A DNA stretch of 35,428 bases. Source: Bacteroidota bacterium. GTDB taxonomy: Bacteria > Bacteroidota > Bacteroidia > Bacteroidales > M50B96. Below are positions 41 to 14,657 of the stretch, one piece after another (within the stretch, counting starts at the first letter, position 1; every line of letters begins with the position of its first letter). Location of the stretch: positions 1-35,428 of the forward strand of contig JANTGP010000013.1 in the NCBI GenBank assembly GCA_024762835.1, read 5' to 3'. The notes beneath the pieces are model-generated. The model did not search any database, had not been told where the DNA came from, and was given only the letters and a program-made list of their open reading frames with translations. Position numbers and translations under genes: made by a program.

Positions 41-101
41 CAGTCAACACTGCATTCATCTCTGGCCTATCGGCGAGACGAATGCTTAGTTGTTGGCAAC
101 C
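41..101 (-). other. attC-like recombination site of cassette A (about 60 bp)
   Basis: On the minus strand the site runs from GGTTGCCAAC to GTTGACTG. Inner arms GCATTCGTC (77-85, reversed) and GATGAATGC (52-60, reversed) are complementary at 8 of 9 positions. The outer ends hold the expected AAC and GTT triplets. The length is close to that of the classical 59-base element. The core GTTGACT nearly fits GTTRRRY. Confidence 0.65.
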
Positions 102-814
102 GTAATTTATTCAATTTTAATTAATTTTATTTGGTCTTGTAACTCGAAAATATCAATTACCAATCTCAAAAACTTGATATTTTTAAAATCTATTCTGCTT
201 GGAATCAATATTTTTTCTCCATTTTTATTCAGAGGTTGATTGATAAATTTCATTAATGATTGGAAATTATCATATCGCTTATTTGTCCAATTGTCACCCT
301 TATACTTTTCAATTTTTGCTTTATCAAAATAATAGGTCAAATTGCTTGAATTTTCTGAAGTAAAATTGTGAATAGTGCTATTTTGTGTTGTCCCTAAATA
401 ATCTTTTATTTTATTAAACTGTGTGTCAGATATATTAGTCAGCCAATATAAATAATTTGGATTTGGGTTTTCATGTCCACTTATTAAATATATCTGTCTT
501 GGTGTAACAACTAAAATATACCTTCCGTCAATGTAAATACTCGGCCAAGAAATCTCTATCAAATTTGTGTTTATCTTATTGTTTAAATTCTTTTCTTGTC
601 CAGAAATAAGTAAGTCAAATTCACCAGTTAATGCGTTATCAGGTAGGATTTGCACACTATAAATGGAATCAAAGTGAGATTTTAATATTTTCAACGAGTC
701 TAAATTAGGTCGTTTTAATGGGTCAATATCAACAAATTGAGAAAAAACTCTCGACGTTGAAATTAAAATCAATATTGTGAGTAGTGCAGATTTCATTTTT
801 TTTATGGTTGCCAA
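48..814 (-). mobile_element. Integron-like gene cassette A (secreted hypothetical gene plus attC)
   Basis: Read on the minus strand, this unit starts at a G|TTGGCAACC junction (near 814), carries one ORF starting 18 bases in, and ends with GGTTGCCAAC followed by a palindromic site that closes at G|TTGACTG (near 48). The 10-base sequence at the start (806-815) is the exact inverse of the one just after the ORF (92-101). That is what an integron cassette predicts, because a circularised cassette must rebuild a self-complementary R''/R' pair. The cut points follow the canonical G|TT rule. No integrase is visible, and the rest of the array would lie before position 1. Confidence 0.7.
107..796 (-). 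CDS. Secreted protein of unknown function (cassette A cargo)
   Basis: I do not recognise this 229-residue protein. The listed ORF starts earlier, but the likely start is the internal ATG at 796, which opens a clear signal peptide (MKSALLTILILISTSRVFSQ) with cleavage probably after the Gln or nearby. The listed upstream part lies across the cassette junction and the attC site, so it cannot belong to the gene. The mature part is rich in Asn, Ile, Lys and Tyr, with no cysteine cluster, lipobox or catalytic motif that I can see. It has a mixed alpha/beta look with a segment IYIDGRYILVVTPRQIYLIS. It is the only gene of its cassette and would depend on an outside promoter or a weak one of its own. 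Function is unassigned. Confidence 0.7.
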   Translation of the reverse strand: MKSALLTILILISTSRVFSQFVDIDPLKRPNLDSLKILKSHFDSIYSVQILPDNALTGEFDLLISGQEKNLNNKINTNLIEISWPSIYIDGRYILVVTPRQIYLISGHENPNPNYLYWLTNISDTQFNKIKDYLGTTQNSTIHNFTSENSSNLTYYFDKAKIEKYKGDNWTNKRYDNFQSLMKFINQPLNKNGEKILIPSRIDFKNIKFLRLVIDIFELQDQIKLIKIE

Positions 815-941
815 CGGTTTAAATATGGTGCGTACCGCATTTTGAAACAATTATTTTTCAAGTTACGATAATCTTTATTTTGTGTATTAACTCTCATATT
901 TACAACTACTTGCGGCATGCACTATATTTTTTGTTATGGGC
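806..941 (-). other. attC-like recombination site of cassette B (about 135 bp)
   Basis: Read on the minus strand, the site starts at GCCCATAAC (933-941) and ends at GTTGGCAACC (806-815). The internal arms at 911-929 and 821-839 can pair at 16 of 19 positions (plus-strand TGCGGCATGCACTATATTT against AAATATGGTGCGTACCGCA). The roughly 70 bases between them form the variable terminal part. Length is within the known range for attC sites. The outer GCCCATAAC matches the GTTATGGGC found at the 5' end of the same cassette (1755-1763), as the cassette model requires. Confidence 0.7.
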
Positions 942-1762
942 TGCTATTTATTCAAGTCTCTATCAATTTAATCACTTCCTTTTTATGTTTTATCATTTTA
1001 ATATTTAGCAAAATATCCATATTATCTGCAACAGATTCTTCTTTTATAGTCAAAATAGGTTCATCAAATTCAATTCTGTATTCTGTCTTATCTTCATTTC
1101 TTTCCATTTGAAAACTCCTTCCTTTAAAACTAAATTCTGCAATCTCATCTCCAAATACATTATCAGGATAATATTTAGGATGCCATTCTGATAATTGTCT
1201 TAATCCTTCTGCTTGAAAAGTCTCAATAAAATATTTATAAAACTCACTTTCAAAAGAATATTCAAAGCAATTAACTTTTTCAGAATTAGGACACCTTTCA
1301 ATTTCCTCATTTTCAATTTCTTTAATTGAAATAGATAGTAATTCAGTTAGTGTTTTAAATGGTTGTATTTCCCCTAATTTTTCATTATCGTCTATGACTT
1401 TGTATACCATTTCACTTTCCAGATTTGATGTGCTCATTAAATAAATAGTATCAACTTCATCTATGTCTACAAAAATCGGAAAATAATCAGGTAATTTATT
1501 TTTTAAATAATCTACATCCTCAAGTATTGATTCTTGTGAAGTATTTATTTTATCAAGTATGTCTTGCACTAATCCGAATGTTGATAAGAACAAGCGATAT
1601 ACAGAATTGAGACGTTTTCCAATCTTTTCTTCAAAATCAATTATTTCTTTCTCTGCCATTGGTTCATAATAAACCGTATTTGAAAATCTATCAATTCTAT
1701 TTTGAAATTCTTTAAACATATAGTTCTTTATTTATCTGATACTTATTCATAGTTGCCCATAA
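815..1762 (-). mobile_element. Integron-like gene cassette B (SUKH-domain gene plus attC)
   Basis: Minus-strand unit that starts at G|TTATGGGC (near 1763), carries one ORF starting 43 bases later, and ends with GCCCATAAC followed by a long attC-like palindrome that closes at G|TTGGCAACC (near 815). The 9-base end sequences 933-941 and 1755-1763 are exact inverse copies. The gene points the same way as its attC, the usual cassette arrangement. It abuts cassette A directly. Confidence 0.7.
952..1719 (-). CDS. SUKH/SMI1-KNR4 family protein (cassette B cargo)
   Basis: This 255-residue soluble protein has the SUKH (SMI1/KNR4) signature in its first 55 residues: an acidic helix with IIDFEEKIGKRLNSVYRLFLSTFG, matching the family pattern of an E-x-x-LG-x-x-LP-x-x-Y-x-x-F-L helix pair. 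The middle part (VDEVDTIYLMSTSN) also fits the family. Many bacterial SUKH proteins are immunity proteins against polymorphic toxins (family knowledge), but no toxin gene is visible next to it, so an orphan immunity role is inference. No signal peptide or membrane segment is visible. The C-terminal half (after about residue 140) is not recognised. The gene fills its cassette almost completely. Confidence 0.7.
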   Translation of the reverse strand: MFKEFQNRIDRFSNTVYYEPMAEKEIIDFEEKIGKRLNSVYRLFLSTFGLVQDILDKINTSQESILEDVDYLKNKLPDYFPIFVDIDEVDTIYLMSTSNLESEMVYKVIDDNEKLGEIQPFKTLTELLSISIKEIENEEIERCPNSEKVNCFEYSFESEFYKYFIETFQAEGLRQLSEWHPKYYPDNVFGDEIAEFSFKGRSFQMERNEDKTEYRIEFDEPILTIKEESVADNMDILLNIKMIKHKKEVIKLIET

Positions 1763-1763
1763 C

Positions 1764-1988
1764 TAGTAAATATATGGACAAATATACTCAATTTGTCGGT
1801 TTTTTTGTCTTTTAGCCCAAGATATTCAATTGAGCTGGTTAGGTTCTTTTTCATATTGTTGCTTACATCTGTATAAATTAATGTTGTTTTAATGCTCGAA
1901 TGTCGTATTTATTAGTTGAATTTATTTCAAACTATACCATTCTTAAGGCTTGACTAGTTATTATCAAAATACATCTTAAATAAAAGCC
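1764..1988. other. Non-coding junction between wzc and the cassette array
   Basis: About 225 bases without a credible gene. ATAACTAGT (1759-1767) recurs as its inverse ACTAGTTAT at 1953-1961, roughly 190 bases apart, and could be the ends of a long or decayed attC or array attachment site. A small hairpin GACAAAT/ATTTGTC lies at 1777-1797, with a T-run to its right on the plus strand. No integrase promoter or ORF is present here. Confidence 0.35.
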
Positions 1989-5350: not shown

Positions 5351-7255
5351 ATGAATATGAACAGACTTAGATTATTAATTTCGATACTTTCTTTTCAGTT
5401 AATATTTAGTTCCATCTCTTTTACGGCTAAAGCCGGAAATCAAAATAATGAACAGAATGAAATCTTACGCCCAATTGGGAATAATGCACCACTAGAACTT
5501 AGTTTTGAGAAAAGTAATCCATCACCCAAGATTAAGAATGGACGAGTAACTATTTATGTTACAGGTGGACAGCCACCATATACATACAAATGGTCGAAAC
5601 AGGATGTTGCTCTTAATTCAAACAAAGCAGAATCGCTTGTTGAAGGAAAAACTTATTCTCTTACCATAACCGACAGTAAAAATAATACTAAAATTGGAAG
5701 TTTTGAAATTTCTGCCGAGTCTGTTAGTGAATCAATAAATGCTGGCTTTGTCCCTGTTGTTGAATTTATAGAAGGGATAATAATGTATGATATTTTTGCA
5801 AAGATGGGTGTTTATGATCCGATAATACACGATGAAAACAGTAATATTCTTTATCACGAAAACGGAGACCCTCGAAAAATGAAAATCCCATTCGTTGTTG
5901 TTTGGTTAATACTGGGTGCTTTATTTTTTACAATATTTATGCGTTTTGTAAATATACGAGGTTTTAAGCATGCTATTCATTTGGTTCAAGGAAAATATAC
6001 CGACCCTAAAGCGAAAGGAGAAGTTTCACATTTTCAAGCCTTGGCAACTGCACTTTCTGCTACAGTAGGTTTAGGAAATATTGCAGGTGTAGCCATTGCT
6101 ATATCTATTGGCGGTCCGGGTGCAACATTTTGGATGATACTTGCAGGACTGCTTGGCATGTCATCAAAATTTACAGAATGTACGCTTGGTGTGAAATATC
6201 GTAAGATTGACAAAGACGGAACCGTACATGGTGGGCCTATGTATTATTTGAGTACTGCATTAAAAAAGAAGAATCTTGGGACTTTAGGTAAAGTTCTTGC
6301 TGCAATTTTTGCGGTATTAATTATTGGAGGTTCATTTGGTGGAGGTAATATGTTTCAAGCAAATCAGGCATTTTCGCAGCTAACGGTAATTGTACCTGCA
6401 CTTGGAGGAAAAGGCTGGATGTTTGGGGTCATTCTTGCTTTTTTGGTTGGTGCTGTAATAATTGGCGGAATAAAAAGTATAGCACGTGTTACTGAAAAGA
6501 TTGTCCCATTTATGGCTATATTATATGTATCAATTGCATTAATAATTATTGGTATAAATATAGCTCATACAGGTGAAGCTTTTCGATTAATTTGGGATGG
6601 TGCTTTTGCCCCCTCTGCAATGAAAGGTGGAATTATAGGAGTCTTGATTGTAGGATTTCAACGAGCAGCTTTCTCTAATGAAGCGGGTGTTGGTTCTGCA
6701 TCAATTGCACACTCAGCAGTAAAAACTACTGAGCCGGTAACTGAAGGTTTAGTATCTCTTTTAGAACCATTTATTGATACTGTTGTAATTTGTACAATGA
6801 CTGCTTTGGTTATAATCTTTACAGGATATCATGACCCTAATTTAGCACAAGGTTTAGACGGAGCACAGTTAACATCAAAAGCTTTTGAGAGTGTATTCTC
6901 ATGGTTTCCGTTTCTTCTTGTAGTTGCAATTATGCTTTTTGCTTTCTCAACCATGATATCATGGTCATATTACGGTATGCAAGGCTTTAATTACCTTTTC
7001 GGAAATATTTTTGAGAAGTATCTGCATTTTAACAAAAAGCAATTAAGAATTACCTATCAGTTAATATTTCTTGCATTTATAATTGTAGGTTCATCCTCGC
7101 AATTAGGAGCTGTTATTGATTTCTCCGACATGATGATATTATCAATGGCATTCCCAAATATATTAGGATTAATAATCTTAGCACCTGAAGTAAAAAAAGA
7201 TTTGGCATCATATCTTAAACGAGTTAAGAGTGGCGAAATAAAACGCTACAAATAA
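5351..7255 (+). CDS. AGCS-family sodium:alanine/glycine symporter with secreted N-terminal domain
   Basis: An inner-membrane carrier of the alanine or glycine:cation symporter family, with the diagnostic run [23 protein letters not shown] near residues 238-256, then [12 protein letters not shown] and [22 protein letters not shown]. Membrane segments occupy about residues 138 to 620. The N-terminus is unusual. A signal peptide (about residues 1-29, ending TAKAG) is followed by a beta-rich segment of about 90 residues with [12 protein letters not shown], which looks like an SprB-type or Ig-like repeat of Bacteroidota surface proteins. The usual AGCS start comes only after this ([16 protein letters not shown]). 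Family length is about 450-550, so the 634 residues reflect this extension. It heads a plus-strand gene run, and the next start is 32 bases after the stop. Confidence 0.9.
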
Positions 7256-7287
7256 ACTATTTGTTAAGCAAATAACTGCATATTATT

Positions 7288-8403
7288 ATGTGGAAAAACT
7301 ATTTCACATTTACAAGAACAGAGCGAAACGGGATGTTCGTATTGCTGGCAATTATTATTTTAATTGTTACGCTAAAGTTATTACTACAAAATAATAAATC
7401 TCATTCTAAAGTAGATTATTCAGAGTTTATACAAAAAGTAGATTCATTTGAGAATTCACTTCATGAAATAACTCAAAATGACTCAGACAGTTCTTTACTT
7501 AAATATGACAGTCTGAAGTTATTTAGGTTTAACCCTAACAATACAAGTAATGAAGATTGGAAAAGCTTGGGTTTATCAGATTATCAAATTCAAATTATTA
7601 ATAACTATCTTAACAAAGGAGGTCATTTTTATAATAGTTCCGATTTTAAGAAGGTTTACGGAATATCAAAAGCTCAGGCTGATATTCTTATCCCTTTTAT
7701 TGATATCCCCGGTTCCGAAAGCAAAAAAGAAACTGTACAAAAAGAACTAATCAAAGCCTTTGTTTTCGACCCAAATACAGCAAGCGATACAGATTTTATA
7801 AAACTTGGATTGTCGCAATATAATATTTCAACAATAAGAAATTACCTGAATAAAGGTGGACATTTTTACACTCCTGATGATTTTGAAAAAATTTACGGCA
7901 TCAGCGAAAGTACATATAAGCAGTTGAAAGATTTTATATTAATAGAGAAATCAAACAAAGACTATTCAAGTCAGCAATACGATTCATTAAAAAGAAATAA
8001 GTCTCAGCTAATCAATATTAATACAGCCGATAGCATTGCCATATTACAATTGCCGGGCATTGGGACGGTGTTTACAAGTCGTATAATCAGTTACAGAAAT
8101 AAGCTCGGTGGATTTTACAGAAAAGAACAGATTCTTGAAGTTTACGGAATGTTGAAAGACAGATACAATTTGATTAAAGATTTAATTGTAATTGATAGTA
8201 CTGCAATAAAAAAGATACCTCTAAATTTTGTAACTGATGTTGAGCTAAGTAAGCATCCATACATCAATTATACAGATGCACAAGCAATTATCAAATACCG
8301 GACAAAAAACGGGAATTATACAAATATCAACCAACTTGTAGAAAATAATATAATCAACGAAAGTACATTCAGAAAAATAAAGGTATATTTGGAATTAAAA
8401 TAA
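7288..8403 (+). CDS. Membrane-anchored helix-hairpin-helix (ComEA-like) repeat protein
   Basis: This 371-residue protein has a short cytoplasmic N-terminus and one membrane segment at about residues 15-33 (GMFVLLAIIILIVTLKLLL). Several helix-hairpin-helix units follow. Two near-identical ones (FNPNNTSNEDW..LGLSDYQI and FDPNTASDTDF..LGLSQYNI, each with NYLNKGGHFY) precede a canonical ComEA-type unit (ININTADSIAILQLPGIGTVFTSRII) and a degenerate last one. HhH units of this type bind DNA backbone non-specifically. With the anchor, a periplasmic DNA-binding role similar to ComEA is possible but is inference. Such proteins are common in Bacteroidota. The next gene begins 10 bases after its stop. 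Confidence 0.82.
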   Translation: MWKNYFTFTRTERNGMFVLLAIIILIVTLKLLLQNNKSHSKVDYSEFIQKVDSFENSLHEITQNDSDSSLLKYDSLKLFRFNPNNTSNEDWKSLGLSDYQIQIINNYLNKGGHFYNSSDFKKVYGISKAQADILIPFIDIPGSESKKETVQKELIKAFVFDPNTASDTDFIKLGLSQYNISTIRNYLNKGGHFYTPDDFEKIYGISESTYKQLKDFILIEKSNKDYSSQQYDSLKRNKSQLININTADSIAILQLPGIGTVFTSRIISYRNKLGGFYRKEQILEVYGMLKDRYNLIKDLIVIDSTAIKKIPLNFVTDVELSKHPYINYTDAQAIIKYRTKNGNYTNINQLVENNIINESTFRKIKVYLELK

Positions 8404-8413
8404 GAATTGTAGA

Positions 8414-9190
8414 ATGAGTACTATAATTGGTGCAATTGCTGGCGATGTGATAGGTTCTGTTTTTGAATGGAACAATATAAAAACTACAAAGTTTTCTCTA
8501 TTTACTGAAGAAACAACTTTCACCGACGATACAATATTAACAATTGCTGTTGCAGACAGTATTCTTAATAATAAAGATTTTGAAAGCACGATTAAACATT
8601 ACGCAAATAAATATAGCGATTACGGATATGGTGCATCTTTTCGCAAATGGTTTGAAAGTGAAAAGCCTGAGCCGTATAATAGTTGGGGAAACGGTTCAGC
8701 AATGCGGGTTAGTCCGGTTGGATTTGCATTCAACAGCTTAGATGAGACACTGACAAAAGCAAAAGAGAGTGCAATAATTACCCACAATCACCCCGAAGGA
8801 ATAAAAGGAGCTCAAGCAGTTGCAGCAGCTATCTACCATGCACGAAACGGGAAAAGCAAAGAATTTATTAGAAATTATATCTCTCAATCATTCGGGTATA
8901 ACTTGAAGCGGTCAATAGATGAGATCAGACCTTCTTACAAATATGACGTTAGCTGTCAAGGCTCTGTTCCCGAAGCAATTATATCTTTTATCGACAGTAC
9001 AGGATTTGAGGATGCAATAAGACTAGCAATATCCATAGGTGGTGATAGTGATACAATTGCCTGTATTGCAGGAGGCATTGCATCATCATTTTATAAAACC
9101 ATACCCGATAGTATTTTAGTAAAACTTTATAAACTTTTACCTCTTGAATTTATAAATATTATTGATAAATTTGATAGGAATTTTAATTGA
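8414..9190 (+). CDS. ADP-ribosylglycohydrolase family protein
   Basis: A cytosolic hydrolase of the DraG/ARH family (258 residues), which removes ADP-ribose from proteins or related substrates using two Mg ions. Metal-binding motifs are visible: GAIAGDVIGSVFEW at the N-terminus, FTDDT near residues 36-40, a middle GNGSAMRVSPVGFAF, ITHNHPEGIKGAQAVAAAIY, and the C-terminal GGDSDTIACIAGGIA near 209-221. No ADP-ribosyltransferase gene or macrodomain is adjacent, so the substrate is unknown. The reading frame ends in TGA just before the ATG of the SDR gene, which suggests coupled translation. Confidence 0.92.
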   Translation: MSTIIGAIAGDVIGSVFEWNNIKTTKFSLFTEETTFTDDTILTIAVADSILNNKDFESTIKHYANKYSDYGYGASFRKWFESEKPEPYNSWGNGSAMRVSPVGFAFNSLDETLTKAKESAIITHNHPEGIKGAQAVAAAIYHARNGKSKEFIRNYISQSFGYNLKRSIDEIRPSYKYDVSCQGSVPEAIISFIDSTGFEDAIRLAISIGGDSDTIACIAGGIASSFYKTIPDSILVKLYKLLPLEFINIIDKFDRNFN

Positions 9191-9195
9191 TAAAT

Positions 9196-9960
9196 ATGGA
9201 ACAAACTCTGAAAGGCAAAACGATTCTTATTACAGGAGGATCAAGAGGCATTGGGGCAGCAACAGCCAAGCTTCTATCTGAAATGGGTGCTTTAATAATT
9301 ATGAATTATAACCAAAACAAAGATGCAGCTTTAAAGTTAATGTCAAGCCTGACAGGCAAAGGGCATATTATGATGCAAGCTGATTTTTCAGACCCGGATA
9401 CAATAGAAAAATTTGCAGAACAAGCACTCAGTAAAGTTGAGAAAATTGATATTCTTATAAATAATGCGGGAATATACATTGAAAAATCTTTTGATGAATT
9501 AGACTTTGCCGAATGGAAAAGTATTTGGCAGCGAACAATTGAAATTAATCTAAGCAGTGTAGCTCATCTGTCGTTTATTATTGCAAAACACATGAAAAAA
9601 TCAGGTGGGGGTAAAATTATTAACATAAGTTCGAGAGGAGCTTTTAGAGGTGAGCCAAATGCCTTGGCCTACGGTGCAAGCAAAGCCGGACTTAACAGTT
9701 TAGGACAGTCAATGGCAAAAGCTCTTGCAGCCGATGATATATTTGTTTACACAATTGCACCCGGATTTGTTGAAACAGATATGGCAAAACTTGCTCTGGA
9801 GCAAGCACGTGGCGAATCAATCAGAAACCAAAGTCCATTAGGAAGAGTTGCCGAACCTATAGAGATAGCCGAAACAATTGCTTTTCTTGCCACAGGTAAA
9901 AACGAATACCTTACCGGCTCTATAATTGATATTAACGGAGCATCATATTTAAGAATGTAG
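9196..9960 (+). CDS. SDR-family NAD(P)-dependent oxidoreductase (FabG-like)
   Basis: A 254-residue short-chain dehydrogenase/reductase. The Rossmann motif is TGGSRGIG (near residues 13-20), the structural NNAG motif is near 88-91, the serine lies in IINISSRGA, and the catalytic Tyr-Lys lies in YGASK (near 158-162). The C-terminus PGFVETDMAK and LATGKNEYLTGSIIDINGA is classical. The ORF track begins at a TTG inside the previous gene. I prefer the ATG at 9196, five bases after that gene's stop, because it gives the normal family N-terminus. The substrate cannot be read from sequence. The position between an ADP-ribosylglycohydrolase and an antiporter gives no pathway, and no acyl carrier protein is nearby to suggest fatty-acid synthesis. 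Confidence 0.9.
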   Translation: MEQTLKGKTILITGGSRGIGAATAKLLSEMGALIIMNYNQNKDAALKLMSSLTGKGHIMMQADFSDPDTIEKFAEQALSKVEKIDILINNAGIYIEKSFDELDFAEWKSIWQRTIEINLSSVAHLSFIIAKHMKKSGGGKIINISSRGAFRGEPNALAYGASKAGLNSLGQSMAKALAADDIFVYTIAPGFVETDMAKLALEQARGESIRNQSPLGRVAEPIEIAETIAFLATGKNEYLTGSIIDINGASYLRM

Positions 9961-10071
9961 GATTCAAACCTTCTATTTAGACATCCTAAATTAAATGACA
10001 CAAAAATGTTTTGTTCAAGATGATATTTATAGCTAATATTAGTGCCTCTAAAAAAAACAACATCATAGTAA

Positions 10072-12003
10072 ATGGTAAAAAAGTTATTAATACTTATTTT
10101 AATCCTTGGAGCTTTTTCAATCTCCTGCTTTGCCGTTTCCTCTAAAAGTGAAAATGAATCAATCTTTAAAATTGAATTTGATGATATAATATTATCAAAT
10201 ATTGAAAGTGAAATAAGCATTAGTTTTTCAAGTGATTCTTTATTTGCAAAATTCATAATATCACCAAATATTATCATAAACGGGGAAAATTTTATCCCAA
10301 ATATTAATAAAGGTAAAATTACTTTACCTTATACCTTTAAGGAGAATACAGAATTAAATATTAAGGTCTTAAATGAAGAACAAAGGGTGAATATTAAACC
10401 AATTCCCTTATGGCTGTCTGTTTTACCTCCGCTTTTTGCCATCATTATTGCTCTGTTATTCAGGGAAGTATTTTCAGCTTTATTTATTGGAATTTTGTTT
10501 GGGGCATCAATCATTTCATGGTATCAGGGCAATCTCTTAATAATAGCGGTATTTAAGGCTCTTTTTGCAGTAATAGACACTTACCTTTTACAATCCTTAA
10601 ACCACTCAGGACACCTAAGTATTATTGTTTTTTCGATGCTAATTGGTGCAATGGTAAATCTAATCTCTCGAAATGGCGGAATGCAAGGCGTTGTTAATTA
10701 TCTGTCGCGTTTTGCAGACTCACCACGCTCGGGACAGTTTATTACATGGTTACTCGGTATAGCAATCTTTTTCGACGACTATGCAAATACTTTGGTAGTT
10801 GGGAATACAATGCGGCCAATTACCGACCGTTTACGAATATCAAGAGAAAAGCTAAGTTATATTGTTGATTCCACAGCTGCTCCAATAGCTGCAATTGCAT
10901 TTGTCACTACATGGATAGGTGCAGAATTAAGCTATATTCAAGATGGGATATCAAAACTCGGACTTGACGAAAATGCATATCAGGTATTTGTCAATTCACT
11001 GTCATATTCTTTTTATCCGGTTTCTGCTTTACTTTTTATTGTAATTCTTTTTTGGCAGAAAAAAGATTTTGGACCGATGTACAAAGCCGAAGTAAGAGCA
11101 AGGTCAGGAAATGTCACTTCAATTAGTGATAAAAATGCTAGCACATTTAACGACCACAATCTTGATATTTCCAAAAACGCAAAGCCAAGGGCAATTAATG
11201 CAATTATTCCTGTTCTGGTAGTTGTATTTGGTACCATTGCCGGCTTAATTTATACTGGCATGGCTGAAAAATCATGGAGTAATGAACTTGGTTTCTCAAA
11301 AAATCTCTCAATGATAATTGGGGTTGCTGATACTTATTCTGCATTGCTTTGGTCTTCAATATCAGGTGTTGCTGCTGCTTTATTTCTAACTCTAAGTCAA
11401 AGACTAATGAGCCTGAAAGCCAGTATTGACAGTTTAACCGACGGTTTTAAAACAATGTTGCCTGCAATTCTTATATTATCGCTTGCATGGTCACTTGCAT
11501 TAGTTACCGAAGATTTACAAACAGCAACATTTATTTCCGAAACCTTATTGAGCTTTAAAATATCACCTTATCTTATTCCTGCACTAACTTTTGCTATGGC
11601 GGCAGTAATATCCTTTTCTACCGGCTCGTCATGGGGGACAATGGCTATTCTTTATCCGCTCATTCTTCCTGCAAGCTGGTTAATATCTATGGATTATGGC
11701 CTAAACTACGACACATCAATGTTACTGTTTCATAATGTTGTTTCTGCTGTGCTTGCAGGCTCTGTAATGGGTGATCATTGCTCTCCAATATCCGACACAA
11801 CAATACTAAGCTCACTCGCAAGTTCTTGTAATCATATCGACCACGTTAATACTCAATTGCCTTATGCAGTAACTGTTGGAAGCGTTTCTTTATTTTTCGG
11901 GACGCTACCGGCTGCTTACGGTGTTTCGTCATGGATATTGTTTCCCGCTAATTTAATTATCCTCTATTTTATAGTAAAGATATTTGGGAAAAAGACGGAA
12001 TAA
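10072..12003 (+). CDS. NhaC-family Na+/H+ antiporter with secreted N-terminal domain
   Basis: An inner-membrane antiporter of the NhaC/ion transporter superfamily. It has FFDDYANTLVVGNTMRPITDRL near residues 232-253, STAAPIAAIAFVTTWIG, TGSSWGTMAILYPL near 516-529 and GSVMGDHCSPISDTTILSS near 562-580. The first membrane helix begins near residue 108. Before it are a signal-peptide-like start (MVKKLLILILILGAFSISCFA) and about 85 residues of beta-prone sequence with no helix, absent from standard NhaC proteins. The segment FSISC could also be read as a weak lipobox. The protein is 643 residues against about 450-550 for the family. It follows the SDR gene by 111 bases and probably ends the run that began with the AGCS symporter, which is also sodium-coupled. 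Confidence 0.9.
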   Translation: MVKKLLILILILGAFSISCFAVSSKSENESIFKIEFDDIILSNIESEISISFSSDSLFAKFIISPNIIINGENFIPNINKGKITLPYTFKENTELNIKVLNEEQRVNIKPIPLWLSVLPPLFAIIIALLFREVFSALFIGILFGASIISWYQGNLLIIAVFKALFAVIDTYLLQSLNHSGHLSIIVFSMLIGAMVNLISRNGGMQGVVNYLSRFADSPRSGQFITWLLGIAIFFDDYANTLVVGNTMRPITDRLRISREKLSYIVDSTAAPIAAIAFVTTWIGAELSYIQDGISKLGLDENAYQVFVNSLSYSFYPVSALLFIVILFWQKKDFGPMYKAEVRARSGNVTSISDKNASTFNDHNLDISKNAKPRAINAIIPVLVVVFGTIAGLIYTGMAEKSWSNELGFSKNLSMIIGVADTYSALLWSSISGVAAALFLTLSQRLMSLKASIDSLTDGFKTMLPAILILSLAWSLALVTEDLQTATFISETLLSFKISPYLIPALTFAMAAVISFSTGSSWGTMAILYPLILPASWLISMDYGLNYDTSMLLFHNVVSAVLAGSVMGDHCSPISDTTILSSLASSCNHIDHVNTQLPYAVTVGSVSLFFGTLPAAYGVSSWILFPANLIILYFIVKIFGKKTE

Positions 12004-13451: not shown

Positions 13452-14615
13452 ATGGAAAAAGAAGTAATGATTGAAAAGGAAGAGGGATTCTTCGGAAAAT
13501 TCGGAGGAATGTATGTGCCGGCTGTATTAGCAGGAAAACTGCAAGATTTGTATGACAATTTTGTAAAATTCAGCCAAGAAGATAACTTTAAAAAAGAGTA
13601 TCTTAATTTGCTAAAGAATTATGTAGGTCGTCCTTCGCCTTTATACAAAGCAAAAAGGTTGTCAGAATATGTAGGAAGTGAGATTTACTTAAAAAGAGAG
13701 GATTTGAATCACACAGGCTCACACAAAATTAACAACACCATTGGGCAAATCTTGCTGGCAAAACGAATGGGTGCAACTGAAATTATTGCAGAAACCGGTG
13801 CAGGACAACATGGAGTTGCAACAGCTACTTCTGCTGCATTAATGGGTATAAAGTGTAAAGTATTTATGGGAAATACCGATACCGAACGACAAAAAATGAA
13901 TGTTAACCGAATGCGTCTGCTAGGTGCAGAAGTAATAGAGGTAAAGCAAGGTCAAGGGACATTAAAAGATGCTGTTGATGCTGCTTTAGGATACTATGTT
14001 GAGCATCCTGAGTCATATTATTTATTAGGCTCGGCAGTTGGTCCTCATCCATATCCTACTATGGTAAGATATTTTCAATCGGTAATAAGCCAAGAAATAA
14101 AGAAGCAGATATTGGAAGAAGAAAATCGTTTACCAGAAACAGTTATAGCATGCATCGGCGGTGGCTCAAATGCAATAGGAGCTTTTGCTAACTTTTTAAA
14201 TGACGATGTTGAACTCCTTGCAGCTGAAGGAGCTGGCGAAGGATTAGACACAAATAAAACGGCAGCAACACTTACACTTGGGAAACAAATGATTTTTCAA
14301 GGAGCAGATTCGCTTTGCTTGGTTGACAAAGAAGGTAATCCAATGGACTCATATTCAGTTGCAGCTGGTTTAGATTATCCGGGAATAGGTCCTGAACATG
14401 CATATTTAAAAGAGATTGACAGAGTACAATATCATCCGGTGACTGATGAGGAAGCTTTAGATGCTTTTAAGCTATTATCTGAATTAGAAGGAATTATTCC
14501 GGCTATTGAATCTGCACATGCCATAGCTTTAGCAATAAAAGAGCTTAAAGGCAAAAATAAATTGGCAGTAATAAACCTATCAGGAAGAGGAGATAAAGAT
14601 GTTCATAGATTATAG
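13452..14615 (+). CDS. trpB: Tryptophan synthase beta subunit
   Basis: A 387-residue PLP enzyme that joins indole and serine to make tryptophan. The PLP lysine is Lys92 in HTGSHKINN. The phosphate-binding GGGSNAIG lies near residue 236, and ETGAGQHGVATAT, the serine-side loop, is intact. The N-terminal FGKFGGMYVP and the C-terminal NLSGRGDKDVH are typical of the main TrpB1 class. It stands alone: no trpA, trpC, trpF or other pathway gene adjoins it, and the next gene is convergent. A leader ORF and attenuator precede it, so it probably responds to tryptophan supply. The protein looks complete and functional. Confidence 0.96.
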   Translation: MEKEVMIEKEEGFFGKFGGMYVPAVLAGKLQDLYDNFVKFSQEDNFKKEYLNLLKNYVGRPSPLYKAKRLSEYVGSEIYLKREDLNHTGSHKINNTIGQILLAKRMGATEIIAETGAGQHGVATATSAALMGIKCKVFMGNTDTERQKMNVNRMRLLGAEVIEVKQGQGTLKDAVDAALGYYVEHPESYYLLGSAVGPHPYPTMVRYFQSVISQEIKKQILEEENRLPETVIACIGGGSNAIGAFANFLNDDVELLAAEGAGEGLDTNKTAATLTLGKQMIFQGADSLCLVDKEGNPMDSYSVAAGLDYPGIGPEHAYLKEIDRVQYHPVTDEEALDAFKLLSELEGIIPAIESAHAIALAIKELKGKNKLAVINLSGRGDKDVHRL

Positions 14616-14657
14616 TTAATAAATTAATGATTTGAAAAAAGGTAATCTTTAAAAAAA

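Follow-up and report, generated by a model that had tools for sequence, protein, structure and literature searches.

Among gene-capture platforms, integrons are the best known, and Bacteroidota have been thought nearly free of them. The phylum is listed among those that bear integrons (PMC8618304; PMC9668308), and the only complete integron that IntegronFinder 2.0 recorded for Bacteroidetes is that of Salinibacter ruber (PMC9024848). The origin of integrons has been tied to the acquisition of the I2 helix by their integrase, IntI; I2 is absent from other proteins, and the absence of known intermediates has been put on record as a 'lack of intermediates' (PMC7790495). According to the work of Messier and Roy (2001), as it is cited in the same article, I2 is necessary for cassette capture. 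In a survey from 2008, integrases were kept only if they had the additional domain (PMC2426708), so that a class without I2 would be excluded by construction. In the 'integron-like subgroup' of simple tyrosine recombinases defined by Smyshlyaev (2021), the insertion is incompletely conserved, yet it is held to be essential for integron function, and the passages of that paper on the subgroup describe no cassette arrays for its insertion-less members (PMC8138268). In the literature searched, outside which lay most subscription journals and preprints, we found no description of cassette platforms that operate without I2. The reverse integrons of Treponema, which have an IntI that carries the I2 domain, belong to another phylum and have another site consensus.

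The stretch of DNA that we analysed (the window; 35,428 nucleotides) begins at a contig end, and its first two kilobases very probably represent the edge of a platform and the first two cassettes of an integron-type system with an I2-less recombinase of the IntI clade. A preliminary description made from the sequence alone had seen two minus-strand units here, whose ends carried exact inverse core sequences, and all four cores were present as described. Cassette 1 starts with GTTATGGGC (1763-1755) and ends with GCCCATAAC (941-933), and cassette 2 starts with GTTGGCAACC (815-806) and ends with GGTTGCCAAC (101-92). The pairing between the ends is longer than first noted, being GTTATGGGC-AA-CTAT against ATAG-CA-GCCCATAAC for cassette 1 and GTTGGCAACC-A-TAA against TTA-C-GGTTGCCAAC for cassette 2. 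When ten variable positions were scored, the two ends of each cassette matched each other at 10/10 and 9/10 positions, whereas crossed ends matched at 3 and 2, confirming that each unit pairs with itself and not with its neighbour. Among the 616 GTT-initial 15-mers in the window, the true start was the only one to reach a score of 8 for each end. These matches are far beyond chance and both cassettes are real. The units are arranged in tandem and each has a single open reading frame in array orientation (Table 1). Searches with Pfam and PADLOC returned nothing for either reading frame, and the gene of cassette 1 had no homologue in the 149 relatives searched; a fixed order of genes and spacers in relatives, which had been named as evidence against mobile cassettes, was not seen.

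Table 1. Features at the start of the window, with the evidence for each.
Feature	Position	Strand	Evidence
Cassette 1 body	936..1763	-	start GTTATGGGC at 1763; own-end complementarity 10/10
Cassette 1 ORF, 255 aa	952..1719	-	open reading frame; no family found
attC of cassette 1, AAC...GTT	813..935	-	16-bp stem, two A.C mismatches (G.T on other strand); match to model R1, 133 bits
Cassette 2 body	95..815	-	start GTTGGCAACC at 815; own-end complementarity 9/10
Cassette 2 ORF, 229 aa from ATG (247 aa from upstream TTG)	107..796	-	open reading frame
attC-like site of cassette 2, cut by contig end	1..94	-	repeat family A 'AACAACTAAGCATTCGTCTCGCC...GAGATGAATGCAGTGTTGAC..', ~27 genome copies
Decayed 3' end of integrase-like tyrosine recombinase gene (..IKTTLIYTDVSNNMKKNLTSSIEYLGLKDKKTDKLSIFVHIFTS..)	1764..~1921	-	translation; DNA match to 3' end of the C114 ORF and to five genome loci
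attI-like site GAGTATATTTGTCCATATATTTACTA|GTT with overlapping -7-like box TATATTTG	1761..1790	-	homology between loci stops at GTT

The site that closes cassette 1 had been described as a palindrome of about 135 bp; the palindrome and its AAC/GTT ends are real, and the true site is 123 nt long (813-935). A home-made finder of AAC/GTT hairpins was too noisy, and covariance models, whose E-values are rough, were used instead. Relatives of this site occur in other genera and families of Bacteroidota with identities of up to 89%, and full-length homologues are conserved from AAC to GTT and variable directly outside both ends. RNAalifold analysis of 16 homologues gave the same 16-bp stem that had been drawn by hand. 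Stem versions CCGC/GCGG and TTGG/CCAA swap by double changes, and the covariation score was 0.245 compared with 0.078 ± 0.017 for shuffled alignments (0/500 shuffles), bearing out the proposal that attC is defined here by its fold and not by its sequence. In place of clear one-sided bulges, the stem has conserved A.C mismatches, two of which recur and are G.T pairs on the opposite strand; a third lies at arm position 11, where 88/90 starts have A and 72/91 R'' arms have C. Using DNA parameters, we found that the better-folding strand was the bottom one in 69 and the top one in 20 of 91 sites of this type (Wilcoxon p = 1e-7). The site has the AAC...GTT ends of a canonical attC, an R'' arm complementary to the start of its own cassette and a single-strand hairpin conserved by structure. 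Whereas the canonical R arm is the 7-nt GTTRRRY, the arm here is about 15 nt long, carries a fixed A.C mismatch and keeps GTT alone, the bases after it being variable (for example, GTTATGG and GTTGGCA); the suggestion of an under-described attC lineage that deviates from GTTRRRY was supported, and an attC-like fold, whose absence would have counted against the array, is conserved at this inner site.

An Xer-like enzyme might instead recombine ordinary double-stranded sites, the hairpin shape reflecting inverted binding arms only. Such an explanation would avoid crediting an enzyme without the I2 helix with single-strand recombination, and the recombinases described below have the core length of Xer proteins without I2 and count XerA (4A8E, 5HXY) among their best matches. 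A duplex site that is read by sequence, however, needs no complementarity, covariation or strand bias. In the sites analysed, the arms vary freely yet remain complementary, the stem covaries, folding favours one strand and the mismatches are conserved in one orientation, and we consider the duplex explanation unlikely.

The array had been called integrase-less and CALIN-like, and this part of the preliminary description was not supported. The segment directly upstream of cassette 1, in which no recombinase had been seen, holds the remnant of a recombinase gene, whose similarity to locus L020 reaches position ~1960 and which ends in an attI-like sequence, ...TATTTACTA|GTT. The same gene end was found at five more loci of the genome (contigs C45, C19, C93, C29 and C110), each time followed by a different cassette, and homology ends precisely at GTT both in the window and in loci L011, L020, L044, L015 and L021. 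A long parent reading frame of 552 aa without internal stop lies elsewhere in the genome (C114:3-1658); the contig breaks off and truncates it at the very point where the attI-like part would be expected. Contigs C8 and C18 also begin inside the end of the recombinase gene, indicating that contigs break at the repeated platform end. A complete unit of recombinase, attI and array was not found assembled in this genome, nor was an IntI above the TIGR02249 cut-off. In the window, the -7-like box TATATTTG precedes the crossover by 23 nt, and the motif TAnnTTTG occurred in 5/19 attI sites against 0.85 expected, making a cassette promoter within attI plausible for some platforms only. The copy in the window is probably a remnant, which would be able to move only with help in trans. 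It is true that, as in a CALIN, the window cassettes have no functional integrase gene, and that the recombinase persists in the window only as a fossil and the contig comes to its end. A true CALIN, or a degenerate array that a canonical integron left behind when it vanished, is nevertheless highly unlikely, because the fossil, with its attI-like site, matches the family of I2-less recombinases, and relatives carry intact platforms of that type, many with the recombinase gene directly upstream of the array. The start of the window is thus apparently the fossil edge of a widespread and apparently undescribed integron variant and not an orphan CALIN.

Covariance model R1 detected sites in 29/60 relatives. 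Neighbouring sites on the same strand form chains in which the start that follows one site is complementary to the R'' arm of the next, and 13/25 neighbouring pairs scored at least 8/10 compared with 8/1210 background pairs. One contig (G027:C3) has five consecutive cassettes of 5.7-19.4 kb with matches of 9-10/10 and a recombinase gene upstream in the same orientation. A search with the recombinase alignment returned at least 590 relatives, mostly from Bacteroidota, and 80 loci were taken (L185-L264), most of which, like the window fossil, have the layout described in PMC3607928. Intact recombinases with attI and ordered one-gene arrays on one strand were found in Algoriphagus, Winogradskyella, Lutibacter, Flavobacterium and others. 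Almost all sites detected by model R2 share the strand of the recombinase, and most follow it downstream; L197 (Sphingobacteriales), for example, has six within 4.5 kb and L207 (Arundinibacter roseus) has five. In the named genomes, own-end complementarity was found in 28/41 neighbouring pairs against 45/4116 in the background; about one-third of the pairs fail, presumably because intervening sites were missed. A GTT 27-155 bp past the recombinase stop matched the R'' arm of the first site in 17/23 named loci (background 7/506), so that attI beside the recombinase gene, followed by the first cassette, is present there in intact form and in the window as a fossil. Cassettes had a median length of 782 bp, and the longest reading frame was array-oriented in 21/22, mostly filling more than 80% of the cassette. 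R2 sites were present in 133/297 genomes sampled across Bacteroidota (~45%) and in 0/13 non-Bacteroidota genomes with recombinase relatives, a small control. The claim that integron-type cassettes exist in Bacteroidota was supported, and core complementarity, whose failure in neighbouring units would have counted against it, holds in many other arrays.

Several arrays in relatives had features of their own. The giant same-strand cassettes of G027:C3:40001-115000 (L143-L146; 5.7-19.4 kb) each contain a reading frame of 0.9-1.4 thousand aa and small reading frames, one block of which is nearly repeated, a layout that resembles a large protein with small genes (toxin/immunity-like). At L162 (G018:C7:15001-30936; sites 5659-10605), four successive attC-like sites end in CCGAT/CCAAT followed by the same GATATAGCATTC, and not in GTT with variable bases. 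An identical R'' arm, TTTGTTTTGTTCAAC, is common to several attC-like sites of genome G052 (L153 and L161). Other tyrosine recombinases adjoin attC-like sites at L158 (G025:C144) and L153 (G052:C146). The G025 enzyme comes from a branch that has a YLHV tail, and behind it lies, as judged by eye, an IS91-type transposase-like gene; IS91-type recombinases near these two sites were set aside as candidates, as they look like a different branch.

In a maximum-likelihood tree, the array-associated recombinases and IntI formed one clade (100/100) apart from the XerC/XerD branch, and IntI was nested weakly inside the recombinase clade (86/66 with G027C3 and G001). They share the C-terminus of IntI (YTHV...SPLDxL), with the SPxD motif in 60/73. 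Unlike XerA, XerC and XerD, they have this IntI-like end, vary in copy number and adjoin cassette arrays. The stretch that holds I2 was 45-46 aa in three IntI proteins but 14 aa (range 12-20) in 73/73 of these recombinases, and also 14 aa in the C114 protein, demonstrating that the IntI-specific I2 domain is missing. Modelled with AlphaFold (pLDDT 86, pTM 0.58), the Algoriphagus enzyme had the integron integrase of V. cholerae (2A3V) as its best PDB match, followed by XerA, and an N-terminal beta-beta-alpha-beta-beta-alpha-beta domain, which the longer recombinases, that of C114 included, seem to repeat up to three times. A HARP-like domain at the N-terminus was weighed as a possible stand-in for I2 and not retained, the Pfam matches being below cut-off and confined to few proteins; it is only a lead. 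One relative (G010) has a genuine IntI gene (L163, G010:C50:52308-53159; 367 bits), with the I2 region present and an apparently altered C-terminus.

If I2 is necessary for cassette capture, as reported (PMC7790495), a canonical IntI acting in trans could move the cassettes and the neighbouring I2-less recombinase would be unrelated to them. The gene in G010 would fit, being the one IntI above the family cut-off among 60 relatives; none was found in the other 59 or, at the TIGR02249 cut-off, in any of 20 array-bearing named genomes. Moreover, the I2-less gene lies directly beside attI and is strand-matched with the arrays, making action of IntI in trans very improbable.

We propose that the minus strand at the start of the window reads recombinase gene (here its decayed 3' end), attI, cassette 1, attC, cassette 2 and attC. 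In living versions, the I2-less enzyme, a tyrosine recombinase from the IntI clade, would act on double-stranded attI and folded attC and cleave a single strand at G|TT. The attC strand used would probably be the bottom one, on which G.T pairs stand in place of the conserved A.C mismatches. Insertion of circular cassettes would take place at attI and excision between attC sites. Recognition would rest on structure and not on sequence, as the 15-nt start arm is variable and complementary to its own R'' arm. Such a system would share with canonical integrons a recombinase, attI, tandem one-gene cassettes in one orientation and attC sites with G|TT, own-end complementary R boxes and a better-folding bottom strand, and would differ in a recombinase without I2 and with added N-terminal beta-beta-alpha repeats and in cassettes of up to 19 kb in one genome (G027). 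We think it probable that integrons spread throughout Bacteroidota depend on recombinases without I2, which form either the sister group or the stem group of IntI, in which case structure-directed attC recombination would predate or dispense with I2 and these enzymes would be the missing intermediates in the origin of integrons. Because the system appears to depend on a recombinase that lacks a protein part hitherto regarded as essential to integrons, current searches overlook it. If ~45% of sampled Bacteroidota genomes carry such sites, there is a large overlooked pool of mobile genes, and I2-less recombinases on cassette arrays in culturable isolates make the question of integron origin directly testable.

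The site of cassette 2 differs from that of cassette 1. The ~60-bp palindrome noted at 41-101 forms a strong hairpin on both strands (z -4.6 and -3.1) and belongs to repeat family A. As a complete attC it was rejected: conservation continues beyond its GTT, and in L013 a 12/14 match was found to an end ~190 nt further on. The complete site probably extends past window position 1, given the conservation beyond GTT; it does not show the standard stem, and where it truly ends on the right is uncertain. A search of the genome and viral collections with an exact 20-mer from the repeat gave zero matches, suggesting that family A is confined to its own lineage, and Rfam held no relevant family. That all these sites are dispersed non-mobile repeats (MITE- or REP-like) that flank genes by chance is scarcely credible, as MITEs are not expected to show own-end complementarity or exact AAC/GTT boundaries in many genomes; these features refute the idea for the 813-935 type, while the conserved flanks of the ~27 family-A copies and MITE-like insertions in some of them allow it for parts of the family-A tail. 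A sequence like the 3' end of a group II intron (domain V, by eye) lies just downstream of the family-A site in L011 (minus strand, ~14470-14620); the group IIC-intron targeting that it brought to mind was rejected, as it leaves the arrays unexplained. The insertions in the site tails of L012 and L014 are ~190 bp long with ends GTGTTAAATCAAG / CTTAACAC. Elsewhere in the window, positions 5351-7255 encode an unusual fusion, in which a sodium:alanine symporter carries a SprB-repeat segment at its N-terminus.
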